A DNA stretch of 64,000 nt from contig NZ_JQLN01000005.1 of the NCBI RefSeq assembly GCF_000744225.1, positions 1,488,001-1,552,000 of the forward strand, read 5' to 3'. Position 1 is the stretch's first letter; every line of letters starts with the position of its first letter. A program made the translations under genes and the position numbers. This document shows positions 34,559 to 44,332 of this stretch, piece after piece. The notes below the pieces were generated by a model. That model saw nothing but the letters and a program-made list of their open reading frames with translations. It was not told the DNA's origin and searched no databases. The stretch comes from Kitasatospora mediocidica KCTC 9733 (lineage in GTDB: Bacteria > Actinomycetota > Actinomycetes > Streptomycetales > Streptomycetaceae).

Positions 34559-37150
<2,592 letters not shown>

Positions 37151-38766: not shown

Positions 38767-39099
38767 GTGTCGGAACGTTCGCAGCATGTGCTGGTGGAAA
38801 GTCAGGTGGTCTGGGGGCCGGGAGCGGGACGGTTCCTGCGTGAAGCGGTGACGCTCGCCGAGGCGGGGGACCGGGTGGTCCTGTACCTGGTCGAGGACGG
38901 CATCTTCGCGGCCGTCTCGGACGCGGTGCCGGAGCTGGCCCGGCTGGTCGAGCTGGGCTCGGAGGTGTGGGCGGACGACCGTTCGCTGACGCACCGCGCG
39001 CTGGCCGCCACCCGGCTCTCGCCCTACGTCACGGTGAAGGACGTCGAGGACCTGGACCTGCTGCTCCGCAGCACCGAGAGCCGGGTGGCCTGGCACTGA
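38767..39099 (+). CDS. DsrE-like small protein
   Basis: The 110-residue protein from GTG 38767 has GGGAGGGG upstream. The pattern VVWGPGAGRFLREAVTLAEAGDRVVLYLVEDGIFAAV, then ELARLVELGSEVWADDRSLTHRAL and VTVKDVEDLDLLLR, resembles the DsrE/TusB-like fold used in sulfur-transfer and small-molecule handling. There is no cysteine, so sulfur relay is unlikely. It sits between two paralogous regulators and may be a partner or ligand-binding accessory, which is inference. Confidence 0.6.
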   Translation: MSERSQHVLVESQVVWGPGAGRFLREAVTLAEAGDRVVLYLVEDGIFAAVSDAVPELARLVELGSEVWADDRSLTHRALAATRLSPYVTVKDVEDLDLLLRSTESRVAWH

Positions 39100-39628
39100 G
39101 CCGCGCCGCCCGGGGCGGTTCATCGTCGCAGCTCAGCCGTCCGTAGACCGACTACATCCGATGGTTCGCTGCAACTTCGTGCAGTTGCGGGAATCTGCAG
39201 GAAGGCCGCACTTGTCCGACACTCGCCACGCTGTGAGAGTGGGACTACGCCAAGCCGCCAGGGCTACCGCAGCCCACTGGTGGTGACTCGTTCTCCGTCT
39301 TCGCACAGGGGCAGAAGTATCTGTGTGGTGAAGGGAGGACACCGGGTGGTCCGTCATATGTGGTGATGACGACCGGGCCCGGGTCCAGCGAGGCGTTGCT
39401 GCTCCGTCTCGCTGGAAGCACCAGGGATTTGGCGTACACAAGTGGATCCGCCCGGAGTCAGGTGACTTCGAGTCCCTGACTCCGGGCCGGATCCGCTCCC
39501 AAGTTGGCCGGGCTGCCCCGAACGGGGCGGGGCAGCCGTCGGTCATGCTTTCGCGGCGCGCCCGGCTGGGCCGGGCGAGATCGTGCGACCTGGTGACGTG
39601 CCGGCTCGCGGGCACGGGGGGTGACGCG
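39100..39628. promoter_or_regulatory. 529-base leader with two large stem-loops
   Basis: No gene is supported here. Short frames on both strands lack ribosome-binding sites. Near the right end, 39444-39462 pairs with 39475-39494 (19 bp with one bulge, 12-base loop). GGCTGCCCC at 39511-39519 pairs with 39529-39537. The pair stands 90-180 bases before the next regulator start. They may be terminators or an attenuator in its leader. Confidence 0.5.
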
Positions 39629-40639
39629 GTGGCCGAGACCGTGAAGGGTCCGCAGGACACGCTGCTGGACGAGGCCGCGCGCGAGCTCTATCTCGACGTC
39701 CTGCGCCGCGGCGGCGGGGTCGAGTCCGACGAGGTCGCCGAGCGGGACCGTGACGCGCTGCGCCGCCTGGTGGAGATCGGGCTGGTGGTCCCGCGGGTGG
39801 CCGACCGCGGCTTCACCGCCGTCAGTCCGCGGGCGGTGGCCGACCGCATCGGCCTGGAGATGCGGGCCGAGGCCGTCCGGTTGCTGGCCGGATCGGACCA
39901 GGTGAACGGTCGGTTCAGCGATCTGATCCAGGCCTACGACCAACTCGCGCCGGCACCCGTCGGCCGCCCGGCGCCCGAGTGGGTGCACGGCCTGGAGCAG
40001 ATCCAGAAGAGGATCGCCCGGCTGCTGTCGGAGTGCCGGACCGACCTGATCACCGTTCAGCCCGGCCATCGCCCGGCCGAGATCCTGGACGTCGCGCTCC
40101 AGCAGGACCTGCCGTTCCTCAGACGCGGCGGCACCTTGCGGACGATCTACCAGCCGACGGCCCTGACCGCGCCCGCGACGGTCTGCTACGCCACGGAGGT
40201 CGGCAAGCTCGGCGGCCAGGTGCGCGTCCTGGACGAGCCGTTCCAGCGGACCATCATCCTCGACCGCCGGATCGCGGTGATCCCGGCCGGCGACGACCCC
40301 ACGGCTGCGGTCTTCCTGGAGGACCCGGCGGTGGTGGCGCACCTGGTGCGGGTCTTCGAACGGGACTGGGAGCGCGCCGAGACGCCCCGCTGGGCGGACG
40401 CCCGCCGGACGGACACCGCCGGCTCGCCGGGGGGCCGGATCGGCGCGCTGATGGCCCAGGGGCTCACCCAGGGGATGGTGGCCAGACGGCTCGGCCTCAG
40501 CGAGCGTACGGTGGCGGGGCATCTGGCCCGGCTGCGGAACCGATACGGTGCTCGGACCCTCTATCAACTGGGGTGGTTGATGCGGACCGCCGAGCACGGG
40601 GCCGACGTGGTGGACGACCGGAGCGGGGGGATCGGGTAG
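39629..40639 (+). CDS. TrmB/LuxR-like regulator, paralogue 2
   Basis: From GTG 39629 behind GGGGGG, the protein is 336 residues. A longer frame to 39545 exists but lacks a ribosome-binding site. It repeats the family layout: LLDEAARELYLDVLRRGGG, LVEIGLVVPRVADRGFTAVSP, a middle domain with DLITVQPGH, LRTIYQP and VRVLDEPFQRTIILDRRIAVIP, and a LuxR-like HTH (GMVARRLGLSERTVAGHLARL, ending ARTLYQLGWLM). The stop codon overlaps a GTG that could start paralogue 3. The ligand and targets are unknown. Confidence 0.8.
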   Translation: MAETVKGPQDTLLDEAARELYLDVLRRGGGVESDEVAERDRDALRRLVEIGLVVPRVADRGFTAVSPRAVADRIGLEMRAEAVRLLAGSDQVNGRFSDLIQAYDQLAPAPVGRPAPEWVHGLEQIQKRIARLLSECRTDLITVQPGHRPAEILDVALQQDLPFLRRGGTLRTIYQPTALTAPATVCYATEVGKLGGQVRVLDEPFQRTIILDRRIAVIPAGDDPTAAVFLEDPAVVAHLVRVFERDWERAETPRWADARRTDTAGSPGGRIGALMAQGLTQGMVARRLGLSERTVAGHLARLRNRYGARTLYQLGWLMRTAEHGADVVDDRSGGIG

Positions 40640-41724: not shown

Positions 41725-42354
41725 TCAGCCGGTGGCGGCGCCGCTGCTCGGCCAGCTGGTGCCGTACGGGTCGCTGTGCTGGGTCCGCAGCGGGGTGGTG
41801 AACTGCTCGCCGGGCGCCGTCCAGAAGCCCTCGCGCAGCGACAGCGCCATGCCGGCCCAGTCGAGCGCGGTCTCCACGATGTGGCGCAGGCTCTCCTGGG
41901 ACCAGGAGTCGTCGAAGACCAGCGGCAGGACGGGGGCGACCTGCTCGATGGTGGCGATCAGCGGGTTGTGGGTGATCGCCTCGTCGACCAGCAGCACGAT
42001 CGGCTTGCGCAGCGCCGAGCCCCAGCCGAGCTCCAGCGAGACGCCGGCCGAGAGCGGGGCGCCGACGTACGCGAAGACCAGGTCGGCGGTCTGCATCGCC
42101 CGGAAGTCGGAGGGCACCCGCGGTTCCGGAGCCCGGCCGTCCACCGTCCACGCGTCGCTGTGGTGCGCGCTGAACACGGCGGCGCCGCTGCTCAGCAGCG
42201 AGCTGCGCAGGGCGGTCAGCCGGGTGCGGCTGGCCAGGGTGACCACGCTGTCGGCCGGGCCGGTCAGCCGCATCAGCGGCGCGGCGAGGAAGACACGGGC
42301 CCGGCGGCCCTCGGGGGCCTGGGCGGCGTGCTGGCGCATGTAGGGCTCACTCAT
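41725..42354 (-). CDS. nucleoside 2-deoxyribosyltransferase-like protein
   Basis: The 209-residue protein has RARVFLAAPLMRL near the N-terminus, then DFRAMQTADLVFAYVGAPLSAGVSLELGWGSALRKPIVLLVD. The spacing of an aspartate in a 'DADLVxA' segment and a Glu in SxELGWG resembles nucleoside 2-deoxyribosyltransferases and SLOG/Rossmann relatives, which handle nucleotide-sugar bonds. The reaction is unproven. It converges with regulator paralogue 3 and is divergent from the DYIWT-repeat gene across a 459-base region. Confidence 0.6.
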   Translation of the reverse strand: MSEPYMRQHAAQAPEGRRARVFLAAPLMRLTGPADSVVTLASRTRLTALRSSLLSSGAAVFSAHHSDAWTVDGRAPEPRVPSDFRAMQTADLVFAYVGAPLSAGVSLELGWGSALRKPIVLLVDEAITHNPLIATIEQVAPVLPLVFDDSWSQESLRHIVETALDWAGMALSLREGFWTAPGEQFTTPLRTQHSDPYGTSWPSSGAATG

Positions 42355-42568
42355 GGCGGCTACTCCGGGGAAGAGTGGGTCGGCCCGGCTGAGCGTGGTG
42401 TCTCAGCTGGTGCGGTGGTGTACGGAGCAGAGCTGACGGCAAATCCGACATTGGAAGACCGAACGATTGTTGAGCCTTTTACTGACTGGGAGAAACGGGA
42501 GTCGTCGTCAGAACGTGCTGCCAATTGATCGTCTCCGTTGGCACCAGGAGCCGTCCACAGAGCCGGTG

Positions 42569-42599
42569 TGTCATCTCCCTGTCTGGCGCTCGGATGACA
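42569..42599. promoter_or_regulatory. operator-like inverted repeat A (TGTCATC-N17-GATGACA)
   Basis: TGTCATC at 42569-42575 and GATGACA at 42593-42599 are perfect inverted arms with a 17-base spacer. The site lies in the long divergent region between the deoxyribosyltransferase-like gene and the repeat-protein gene. The N17 spacing suits a dimeric or tetrameric regulator. Confidence 0.55.
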
Positions 42600-42645
42600 G
42601 CGCCGTTTGCCACGGGGAGTCACGGCCGCCGCTCACCCCGGGATG

Positions 42646-42676
42646 TGTCATCTTTCTGCATGGCAGCACGATGCCA
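42646..42676. promoter_or_regulatory. operator-like inverted repeat B (TGTCATC-N17-GATGCCA)
   Basis: This is a second copy with the same spacing. TGTCATC at 42646-42652 and GATGCCA at 42670-42676 have one mismatch in the right arm. The two copies start 77 bases apart and share flanking bases (TGTGTCATCT, then CTG). GATAAT at 42724-42729 and TATATC at 42784-42789 are possible -10 elements downstream, without a clean -35. Confidence 0.55.
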
Positions 42677-42813
42677 GGCTCTATGTGATGCCTGACCTTG
42701 CCTCGGGTCCGGGGGGTGGCTTTGATAATGCATTGGCCATGTCTGAAACGCGCGGTAGGCGCAGGGCTGTGGACCATGTCGTTTATATCAGGCTCATGAC
42801 AAGGAGGCGCCAC

Positions 42814-43230
42814 ATGCGTCGTGCACCCCGATTCGTGACTCGCGCGCGTGTGGCTGTCGCAGTAGCCGGCGCCGGGCTGCTGCTTTCAGGCGCTGCCGCA
42901 CTGTTTGGGTCTGTTACCTCGGTGCATCCGACGGGTGACGGTGGGCGGGCGGCGAGTTCGTCGGTCATGGTGGAGGCCGGGTCCGACGACTACATCTGGA
43001 CCAAGACCCCGATGGCGACGCCGGCCGACTACATCTGGACGCTGGGCACGCCGACCGCCGCCGCGGCGGCTGCGCCGGCCGACTACATCTGGACCCTGGG
43101 CGCGCAGAACGACTCCGTGGCCAGGCCCGCCGACTACATCTGGACCAGGACCGCGATGGCGACGCCGGCCGACTACATCTGGACCAAGAGCGCGATGGCC
43201 GCCGCGCCGGCCGACTACATCTGGACCTGA
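42814..43230 (+). CDS. exported DYIWT-repeat protein, possible pro-peptide
   Basis: This 138-residue protein is unlike any family I recognise. ATG 42814 has a perfect AAGGAGG six bases upstream. Residues 1-36 are a basic stretch (RRAPRFVTRARV) and hydrophobic helix (AVAVAGAGLLLSGAAALFGSV) that look like a secretion signal or anchor. After a Gly/Ser linker come six copies of (P-A/S-D)-D-Y-I-W-T, five of them PADYIWT. They are separated by Ala/Thr/Lys/Arg spacers of 6-11 residues, and the last copy ends exactly at the C-terminus. That layout resembles multi-copy peptide precursors. A structural or adhesive role is an alternative. Confidence 0.85.
   Translation: MRRAPRFVTRARVAVAVAGAGLLLSGAAALFGSVTSVHPTGDGGRAASSSVMVEAGSDDYIWTKTPMATPADYIWTLGTPTAAAAAAPADYIWTLGAQNDSVARPADYIWTRTAMATPADYIWTKSAMAAAPADYIWT
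42985..43227 (+). repeat. six in-frame copies of the DYIWT-coding unit
   Basis: The DNA unit GCCGACTACATCTGGAC occurs in copies 2-6 without change. Copy 1 has GACGAC in place of GCCGAC. The DYIWT codons start at 42988, 43027, 43081, 43132, 43171 and 43213. Codon identity as well as residue identity suggests recent duplication or gene conversion. Confidence 0.95.
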
Positions 43231-43239
43231 CCGTCGGAG

Positions 43240-43256
43240 CGTGCGGACCCCGCACG
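43240..43256. terminator. small hairpin after the repeat gene
   Basis: CGTGCGG at 43240-43246 pairs with CCGCACG at 43250-43256. It lies between the convergent repeat gene and regulator paralogue 4. Outer arms GTCGGAG/CTCCGAC further frame the region. Confidence 0.5.
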
Positions 43257-43282
43257 GCCGCGGCGAAGCGAGGCGTGGGCGA

Positions 43283-44332
43283 TCACTCCGACTTGATCGG
43301 GGTTTCGCCCTCGCCCTCGTCCTCGATGCCGTAGGGACTGCCCGGTGCGTTCAGCGCCATCCGCCAGCCGAGCTGGAACAGCGTCTCCGAGCCGTACTCC
43401 TCGCGGAAGTCGGCGATGTGCCTGGCCAGCGTCCGCTCACTGATGCCGAGATTGCGCGCGATGACACGGTGGCCGATTCCCTGGACCATCATCCGCAGGA
43501 TGTTGGTGCGCATCCGCGAGATGACCTCGGGGGGAACTTCGGTCGCCCCCAGGAACGGACTGGAGCGTTCCCACAACTGCTCGAACGAGTCCAGCAGATA
43601 GGCGACGATCGCCTCGTCACGGACGAAGGCGGCCTTTTCGGTGTCACCCCGGACGGGGATCACGGCGACCCGGCGGTCGATGATGAAGAGCCGCGTGAAC
43701 GGTTCCTCCAGGGTCCTGACCTCGGCTCCGGCGTCCGTCATGCGCTCGACGTACTGTCTGGTGGGAGCGGAGTACCGGGCACTCGGGTGGTACACGATCC
43801 GCCGGGAGACGCCACGCCGGATGAGCGCGAGGTCCCCCTCCAGCGCCTCCAGAACCCCCTGTATCTGCGACTGCCGCCGGCTTCCGCCCGGCTGGGCGGT
43901 CAGCACCTCGCGCTCGGCGCCGTCGATCAGGGTGCCCACCCGCTGGTTGATCTCCACCAGTCCGTGGATGTGCTCCACCGGTCCGCCCGGGTGGACTTGC
44001 CGATCCAGTGACTGGTAGGCGTGGTTCAGGTCCTGCAGGGCGGTCGGTATCGACACGGCCTGGGTGAGCAGCGAAAGAGCCTGTTTCTGCCAGGAGGTGC
44101 TAAGCCGGCCGGCCAGCCGATTCGGATCCGTGGCAATAGCGGTCGACGCTTTTCCTTGGCCCAGAACCAATAGACCGAGCTCGGCCAGTTCGGTTCTGGC
44201 TCCGACGAGTCCGGGGTCGTCGATCTCCAGGGAACCGCCGGCGGCGACCACCTGGAGATACAAAGACTTTGCCTCGGCGGAGACGAAGTCGACGTGCTCC
44301 TTCTCCACCTCGGCCCCGCCTGTCGAGCTCAT
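43283..44332 (-). CDS. TrmB/LuxR-like regulator, paralogue 4
   Basis: From ATG 44332 behind GGGAGGGGAG, the protein is 349 residues. It keeps the family pattern: FVSAEAKSLYLQVVAAGGSL, LAELGLLVLGQG, a middle domain with REVLTAQPGG, RRIVYHPSAR and VRTLEEPFTRLFIIDRRVAVIP, and an HTH with RVIARNLGISERTLARHIADF, ending SETLFQLGWRM. It is the most divergent of the four. It is convergent with the DYIWT-repeat gene, 52 bases apart, so it is the closest regulator to it. Confidence 0.82.
   Translation of the reverse strand: MSSTGGAEVEKEHVDFVSAEAKSLYLQVVAAGGSLEIDDPGLVGARTELAELGLLVLGQGKASTAIATDPNRLAGRLSTSWQKQALSLLTQAVSIPTALQDLNHAYQSLDRQVHPGGPVEHIHGLVEINQRVGTLIDGAEREVLTAQPGGSRRQSQIQGVLEALEGDLALIRRGVSRRIVYHPSARYSAPTRQYVERMTDAGAEVRTLEEPFTRLFIIDRRVAVIPVRGDTEKAAFVRDEAIVAYLLDSFEQLWERSSPFLGATEVPPEVISRMRTNILRMMVQGIGHRVIARNLGISERTLARHIADFREEYGSETLFQLGWRMALNAPGSPYGIEDEGEGETPIKSE

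Follow-up and report, generated by a model that had tools for sequence, protein, structure and literature searches.

Candidate D-x-x-W peptide pheromones encoded beside TrmB/LuxR-type regulators in Kitasatospora and Streptomyces

RRNPP systems of Bacillota (Rap, Rgg, NprR, PlcR, PrgX) feature a small propeptide gene that adjoins the gene of a 250–500 aa regulator, occur as diversified pairs, and have a short linear peptide as the ligand of a cytoplasmic DNA-binding receptor. Their definition sets a default propeptide range of 10–100 aa (PMC10075063). Signals of Actinomycetota are typically enzyme-made small molecules (PMC10075063, 2023), and a 2016 review names γ-butyrolactones and cyclic or modified peptides (PMC4748050). 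In Streptomyces coelicolor, the BldK permease imports an oligopeptide signal that controls development (PMC5650626, PMC11303876). The window—the whole stretch of 64,000 nucleotides from Kitasatospora mediocidica KCTC 9733 that was analyzed (contig NZ_JQLN01000005.1, positions 1,488,001 to 1,552,000)—carries a gene for a peptide precursor of 138 aa with six copies of DYIWT, next to the gene of the regulator P0002; relatives of this precursor carry other cores of the form D-x-x-W. The D-x-x-W peptides are probably secreted, species-specific pheromones sensed by the neighboring regulator, in a manner that resembles the RRNPP systems but uses an unrelated receptor. The gene layout is that of the RRNPP systems, with a regulator of 349 aa located 52 bp from the precursor and this adjacency recurring in 69 of 70 genomes; the window precursor exceeds the default propeptide range.

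The receptor proposed here consists of a TrmB/PLD-like sensor and a LuxR-type helix–turn–helix (HTH). In contrast to RRNPP receptors, it carries no TPR repeats as judged by Pfam, which instead reports HTH/GerE and subthreshold TrmB matches in the four regulators of the cluster. Because a TPR receptor is lacking, this is not an RRNPP system; it is furthermore actinobacterial, and its precursors hold up to ten copies of a ligand marked by D-x-x-W. Archaeal TrmB and TrmBL2 share the winged helix, the long helix, and the PLD-like sensor domain, whereas the proteins studied here have an extra C-terminal LuxR-type HTH, a proposed peptide instead of a sugar ligand, and a partner peptide gene. Yeast α-factor and other fungal Kex2-processed precursors are exported and contain many copies of one short peptide. 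The window precursor shares the multicopy design but is bacterial, has no dibasic sites in its linkers, and is paired with a cytoplasmic regulator instead of a membrane receptor; as judged by its sequence, it is not a Kex2-type precursor. No description of D-x-x-W peptides or of their regulator pairing was found among the listed titles and abstract openings of open-license PMC papers, and no mention of DYIWT was found in the open-license PMC papers searched. The system is undescribed in that sense, and receptor class, lineage, and multicopy species-specific precursor are all new in the literature searched.

The precursor gene (42814–43230, + strand), identified as an open reading frame (ORF) with orthologues, is preceded by the ribosome-binding site (RBS) AAGGAGG (42801–42807, + strand) 6 bases ahead of the ATG. 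The leader CATGACAAGGAGG is identical ahead of the orthologues L008, L009, and L010. Residues 1–31 (42814–42906, + strand) form an N-terminus with an Arg-rich start followed by a hydrophobic stretch, and a single-sequence model places a helix at residues 8–30 with low confidence. The first DYIWT copy (42988–43002) is preceded by SD; the other five occur as PADYIWT (DYIWT at 43027–43041, 43081–43095, 43132–43146, 43171–43185, and 43213–43227, all on the + strand), the last being directly followed by the stop codon. The initial annotation of this DNA, made from the sequence by a model, had described the 138-residue ORF, the AAGGAGG site, six DYIWT copies (five as PADYIWT) with the last at the stop codon, and a regulator 52 bases away. 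All of these were confirmed, the 3′ ends of the two genes facing each other. The signal-like N-terminus that it had also named fits in composition, which is the basis of that assignment. A DNA pattern for DYIWT matches six times in the whole 8.7-Mb genome, always within the precursor gene, and the reversed control pattern gives no match. A scan of the window precursor against NCBIfam gave no match.

The partner regulator P0002 (43283–44332, − strand; 349 aa) features a winged helix, a long helix, a TrmB/PLD-like sensor domain, and a LuxR-type HTH, and is the proposed receptor. Its sensor domain comprises residues 116–261 (43550–43987, − strand) and is the region whose changes accompany those of the peptide core; the C-terminal LuxR/GerE-type HTH comprises residues 268–328 (43349–43531, − strand). 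An AlphaFold2 model based on 35 sequences (mean predicted local distance difference test (pLDDT) 78.3, predicted TM-score (pTM) 0.50) has the layout winged helix, long helix at 70–109, α/β domain, and C-terminal HTH. Searched by profile against the PDB, the protein matches TrmBL2 (E 6e-7) over its first two thirds and NarL-type HTHs at its end. Foldseek likewise ranks TrmBL2 (5bpd) on top with E 1.4e-13, with whole chains superposing poorly (TM 0.32/0.41). VIA-align matches residues 116–261 to folds of the PLD family and to 2f5t, the sugar-binding domain of TrmB (Z 14.9, root mean square deviation 2.5, 128 residues). Pfam Regulator_TrmB scores 20.6 bits, under its cut-off of 22.2; GerE is above cut-off in the paralogous regulators P0003 and P0004 and below it in P0002 (23.0 of 23.5 bits) and P0005 (21.7). 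According to these comparisons, P0002 is a TrmB-like regulator with a winged helix and a PLD-like sensor. The earlier label TrmB/LuxR is borne out by the TrmBL2 profile match, the TrmB/PLD folds, and the NarL-type HTH, while the suggested four-member family has to be widened: the genome holds 20 superfamily matches at E ≤ 1e-6 (one of them partial), and four is the number of those in the cluster.

The pairing of peptide and regulator extends throughout Kitasatospora. A blast search with the peptide in 70 Kitasatospora genomes matched six, its own genome included, and revealed four small-precursor relatives with PADYVWT/PADYIWT, PADFIWN, PADLGWT, and PADWQW. The match L012 (E 0.0097) was dropped as a small precursor since it sits inside a 999-codon open frame. 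Regulator orthologues at E ≤ 1e-100 occur in 21 of the 70 genomes, each accompanied by a small convergent ORF bearing at least one D-x-x-W (12 found by script, 9 read from the list). D-x-x-W is the motif to search for, rather than PADYIWT as initially proposed. A looser search finds at least two regulators of the P0002 type in all 70 genomes. Among 53 regions fetched (49 new genomes and 4 repeats), 52 contain the peptide, the exception being G047, a 6.7-kb contig on which the best match is a paralogue. With one locus per genome and a single script, a D-x-x-W ORF stands beside the regulator in 69 genomes, and the contig of the 70th ends before the locus. All 33 named loci of a separate collection also have the peptide; they stem from Kitasatospora, Streptomyces, Streptacidiphilus, and one record labeled Saccharothrix, and as they share members with the 70 genomes they do not form an independent sample. 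One Kitasatospora precursor (L022 in G059) has seven D-x-x-W copies, including degenerate ones (DLWW, DRAW), and a 28-residue tail, and looks like an array in the midst of change.

Asp and Trp are constant in the cores because the ORFs were found by that motif; the end position is not fixed in this way. In 65 of the 69 Kitasatospora precursors, 0–2 residues separate the last Trp from the stop codon, and in 51 it is exactly one, most often Thr. The middle two residues of the last copy occur in 39 versions among the 69. Precursors contain 1–7 D-x-x-W matches, with at least two in 39 and at least three in 15; overlapping matches raise the counts of L019 and L027 by one each. A single copy is present in 30 of 69, and these precursors are 38–68 residues long as scored. 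All matches are alike in 27 of the 39 multimatch precursors, and core pairs are identical in 96 of 133 comparisons within a precursor versus 234 of 9,458 across different precursors. The cores track the regulator tree. Position −1 is mostly A, G, or D and position −2 mostly P, A, or S, and several members feature Ala-x-Ala directly ahead of the first D, such as ASA before DLIWN. Between the window gene and its closest relative L014, 58 aligned codons differ—42 with and 16 without residue change—and all six D-x-x-W are kept in both genes; the linkers drift, whereas the cores are retained. A precursor-like ORF elsewhere in the K. mediocidica genome (L043, 288–461), near a paralogous regulator, ends in APADSLGWQ with three residues between D and W, and the motif rule may be wider than D-x-x-W.

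Beyond Kitasatospora, an alignment of 15 peptide-linked regulators was used as query against 296 genomes of the class, of which 81 matched at E ≤ 1e-45. Streptomyces contributes 24 top-match loci, and 22 share one arrangement with the regulator divergent from the peptide gene at 185–223 bp. The peptide gene is present at all 22 of these Streptomyces loci, which belong to one regulator type (the script detected it in 21, and L240 was read by eye); the set excludes L247, which has no RBS. Multicopy cores are DSTW (9, 10, and 5 copies), DSGW (5, 2, 3, 7, and 5), DSSW (5), DVGW (7), DPGW (3 and 5, one copy being DPSW), DIAW (5), and DITW, DLGW, DSAW, and DSIW (2 each); single copies are DTVW in three precursors and DSKW in two. 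A script-derived set of 22, which includes L242 of another regulator type and leaves out L240, has 16 of 17 multicopy precursors uniform, with pairs alike in 190 of 194 cases within and 391 of 3,292 between precursors. Twelve genomes from seven other Streptomycetaceae genera, eight of them picked for strong regulator matches, yielded 12 distinct D-x-x-W peptides beside 51 regulators at distances up to ∼640 bp, in 8 of the 12 genomes. These peptides were counted by reading; four lack a recognizable RBS, and the loci G078 and G144 recur in the Streptomyces set. L194 (908 bp away), L197, L202, and L218 were dropped from this set as unconvincing. Outside Streptomycetaceae, family f26 has peptides in 5 of 6 regions, for instance DTSWGG (two copies), DTGW (three copies), and DSSWG. 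A precursor of the Streptomyces family with four DDFTW copies (L214, 4288–4629) lies near a distant regulator of the family. Small proteins with DTTWG-like ends occur in Streptomyces; no paper on them was found in the open-license PMC literature searched.

Further pairs are found within the same genome and on plasmids. Besides P0002, four regulators of K. mediocidica have a nearby D-x-x-W ORF, with DTSWGG, DIGWDGG, DQGWG, and DIIWD. Relatives of the regulator occur in 122 plasmid records, and 4 of 7 plasmid loci picked contain a D-x-x-W ORF, one of which (L274) is without a clear RBS. Plasmid pSAM1 of Streptomyces ambofaciens encodes an ORF with three DTAWG copies (WP_053143246.1), and a Streptomyces globosus plasmid encodes a precursor with three DTGWG copies (L275, 1463–1726; WP_114059216.1, "hypothetical protein"). 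The latter and its regulator (1–1417) directly adjoin MbtH and nonribosomal peptide synthetase genes, which suggests a pathway-specific peptide switch. A tblastn search of plasmids with the DSTW-repeat stretch returned two unrelated records. As a control over 106 regions, ORFs were counted whose start is signal-like and whose D-x-x-W lies no more than two residues from the end or is present at least three times: 86 occur in 258.6 kb near regulators (within 700 bp) versus 2 in 822.1 kb elsewhere, being ∼137-fold rarer away. Because the loci near regulators are related and in part duplicated, the figure compares two rates and carries no p-value. The repeats exceed chance because orthologous ORFs of like build carry other repeat cores and because of this near/far contrast; with both, low-complexity coding by chance is ruled out.

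Changes of the core could also be related to changes of the regulator. Each change of core was mapped onto the regulator tree, which has 69 tips. For every one of 213 regulator columns, the fraction of its changes falling on branches where the core changes was then set against the values from 400 simulated cores that evolve at a similar rate. By this measure, residues 116–261, the sensor domain, exceed the rest of the regulator by 0.101 (null 0.009, standard deviation 0.025), a value reached in 0 of 400 simulations (p 0.0025). An earlier and simpler test singled out this domain too, but with a null that was badly off center (mean z below zero), and the 400-simulation test is therefore the one relied on. 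The result supports, and does not prove, that the sensor domain reads the peptide.

The upstream regions align in 21 of the 22 Streptomyces loci, and the box GAACATGATGC is found without mismatch in all 21. At up to two mismatches it occurs in 9 of 69 Kitasatospora upstream regions versus approximately 2 in shuffles; with so few, an operator common to both genera is not claimed. A longer box, CAGGAACATGATGCA, lies in the region that separates the divergent genes in Streptomyces. Each of the four genomes searched holds a single exact copy of it, and G136 an additional site with one mismatch; its reversed control, allowing up to one mismatch, matches once in three of the same four genomes.

The gene probably encodes a secreted propheromone. 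The sequences show a short precursor with a signal-like start and 1–10 D-x-x-W copies in A/P-rich linkers. The copies of one precursor mostly share their core, which varies from species to species, and the fixed neighbor is a gene for a TrmB-like regulator with a LuxR-type DNA-binding domain. The precursor would be exported by the Sec route, and general extracytoplasmic proteases would cut before Asp and shortly after Trp (+1), freeing peptides such as DYIWT. For a repeating Streptomyces precursor without dedicated protease, that of the thiovarsolins, release by endogenous peptidases is thought plausible (PMC6511847). An oligopeptide permease would import the freed peptides; the genome holds 14 SBP_bac_5 genes. 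Uptake of this kind has a precedent in the BldK signal; that a D-x-x-W peptide is the signal imported by BldK is only a possibility. Inside the cell, the peptides would bind the PLD-like sensor domain, and the regulator in its peptide-bound form would alter transcription of its own locus.

In S. coelicolor, such a regulator may strongly affect antibiotic production, SCO3664 being the candidate by gene order. There, clpB is SCO3661 and hspR is SCO3668 (PMC2631018), and SCO3665 (327 aa) and SCO3666 (394 aa) have been assigned to the LuxR family (PMC3282765). In the genome G078, dnaK, grpE, dnaJ, and hspR are followed by genes for a periplasmic binding protein, three regulators, and the peptide, then by two small genes and clpB; by this order, SCO3664 should be the regulator beside the peptide. 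SCO3664 ("regulator") is among the insertion targets that raise actinorhodin more than 50-fold; a plasmid for its complementation is among those listed, and complementation succeeded in 12 of the 16 regulator mutants tested, a figure not specific to SCO3664 (PMC6585502). SCO2686, a 338-aa member of the LuxR family that likewise down-modulates actinorhodin (PMC6585502, PMC3282765), might be a paralogous receptor. More tentatively, and with slightly less belief than doubt, Streptomyces, Kitasatospora, and some other actinomycetes could share a D-x-x-W language with several pairs per genome and species-specific dialects that are set by the two middle residues and homogenized in multicopy precursors. 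In it, a core pair next to the hspR-dnaK/clpB stress genes (SCO3664 in S. coelicolor) would gate antibiotic production, and plasmid copies would do likewise for plasmid pathways. If the pheromone reading is true, antibiotic producers would have a programmable switch in a linear peptide signal that is encoded by a gene, diversifies, and acts through a new class of receptor, and synthetic peptides of 4–6 residues could wake or silence pathways by species. The sequence rule, a D-x-x-W next to a TrmB-LuxR regulator, would then allow ligand and receptor to be predicted jointly from genomes, and there would be a testable explanation for actinorhodin overproduction by SCO3664 insertions.

The initial annotation had proposed an undescribed system that releases many copies of one short, possibly unmodified peptide and involves the neighboring TrmB/LuxR regulator. 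Comparison supports this proposal as regards the pairing (69 of 70 Kitasatospora genomes and 22 of 22 Streptomyces loci), the shortness of the core and its variation among species, and the class of the regulator, while secretion, processing, uptake, and binding are inferred from sequence. A number of observations weigh against the pheromone reading. A nearby D-x-x-W ORF is missing for 15 of the genome's 20 regulator matches (14 when the L043 tail DSLGWQ is counted), and a scan of families f17, f18, f19, and f28 found such an ORF in 0 of 16 regions; the regulator class therefore does not require the peptide. The co-occurrence of motif and regulator, proposed earlier as a check, is accordingly seen in Streptomycetaceae and f26 and not in these four families. 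Many Streptomyces precursors extend 4–18 residues beyond the last W, and such long tails call for a second cut. The 42 versus 16 codon changes mean that the linkers evolve freely and that the ORF as a whole carries no purifying signal. Confidence of the P0002 model is moderate by the pLDDT and pTM given above, and the TrmB-related structures of the PDB belong to sugar-binding or chromatin proteins. Concerning co-change, no single column is significant (strongest V143, maximum z 3.18 versus a null 90% quantile of 3.21), and naming single specificity residues of the receptor was dropped as no column lies beyond the maximum-statistic null. Sensor columns with z > 1.645 number 8 against a null mean of 4.8 (p 0.21), and the sensor domain was picked as test region after a first look at the same data. 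The link to SCO3664 rests on gene order.

Alternatively, the precursor could stay in the membrane or cytoplasm, where its D-x-x-W tail would bind the neighboring regulator directly as a built-in co-regulator, with extra copies raising valency. Constant adjacency and co-change of the sensor fit this equally well, the signal-like start is known from composition alone, and the single exact match of CAGGAACATGATGCA in each of four genomes points to local control. The Ala-x-Ala ahead of the first D in several members speaks for export instead, and fast species-specific change together with homogenized copies would be the pattern expected of exported recognition signals, which leaves a retained co-regulator unlikely. 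Somewhat less probable still is a precursor of a multicore ribosomally synthesized and post-translationally modified peptide (RiPP) or small antibiotic, the product being modified and the regulator merely controlling its expression. Repeating precursors of this type are known in Streptomyces, thiovarsolin VarA with its five repeats being an example (PMC6511847), and repeated short cores in one precursor are common to both. The thiovarsolin model of NCBIfam (NF033878, cut-off 35) weakly resembles L219 (20 bits), gives 14.2 bits for L275, and does not match five others. Core sequence and length differ from those of thiovarsolins, however, and the window precursor has a regulator as partner. No YcaO gene is located on the window's contig—a search of the whole genome found two elsewhere (C2 and C7)—and no RiPP-type enzyme domain was found among the neighbors scanned, which are part of the window's genes; a RiPP with an adjacent enzyme of a known type is thus unlikely. 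The conserved neighbors are instead clpB, the NDT-like gene described below, hspR, and dnaJ, and the core co-changes with the sensor domain of the regulator.

Repeats that are structural or adhesive in an envelope protein left intact are the least probable explanation and can largely be set aside. Aromatic-residue repeats in exported proteins can serve wall or surface binding, and the single-sequence model predicts, with very low confidence, short strands at several of the copies. The repeat region nevertheless has no confident fold in that model (mean pLDDT 41.4), copy number varies freely down to the 30 single-copy precursors among the 69 of Kitasatospora, and the fixed pairing with a transcription regulator is at odds with a purely structural role. 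The secreted pheromone remains the preferred reading.

The surroundings of the pair are conserved as well. The nucleoside 2-deoxyribosyltransferase (NDT)-like gene (41725–42354, − strand; PF05014 below cut-off), a possible target gene, is divergent from the peptide gene, and the intergenic region between them (42355–42813) is the presumed control region. This gene is present in 52 of 53 Kitasatospora regions and in 0 of 3 Streptomyces regions tested. Together with the paralogous regulators P0003 (40698–41663, + strand), P0004 (39545–40639, + strand; start codon uncertain, 39626–40639 used), and P0005 (37462–38427, + strand), it lies on the other side of the peptide gene from P0002. A 110-aa ORF among the regulators (38767–39099) has no Pfam match and has relatives in only 3 of 53 Kitasatospora regions. 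The cluster is flanked by clpB (34559–37150) and by hspR-dnaJ-grpE-dnaK, the last two being what we take to be grpE and dnaK from their sequences. The order clpB, NDT-like gene, P0002, hspR, dnaJ is found in 50 of 53 Kitasatospora regions (three with one extra small gene); two of the remaining three are without clpB, and one is the G047 contig. Three 19-kb Streptomyces regions feature ClpB in 3 of 3 and HspR and DnaJ in 2 of 3.

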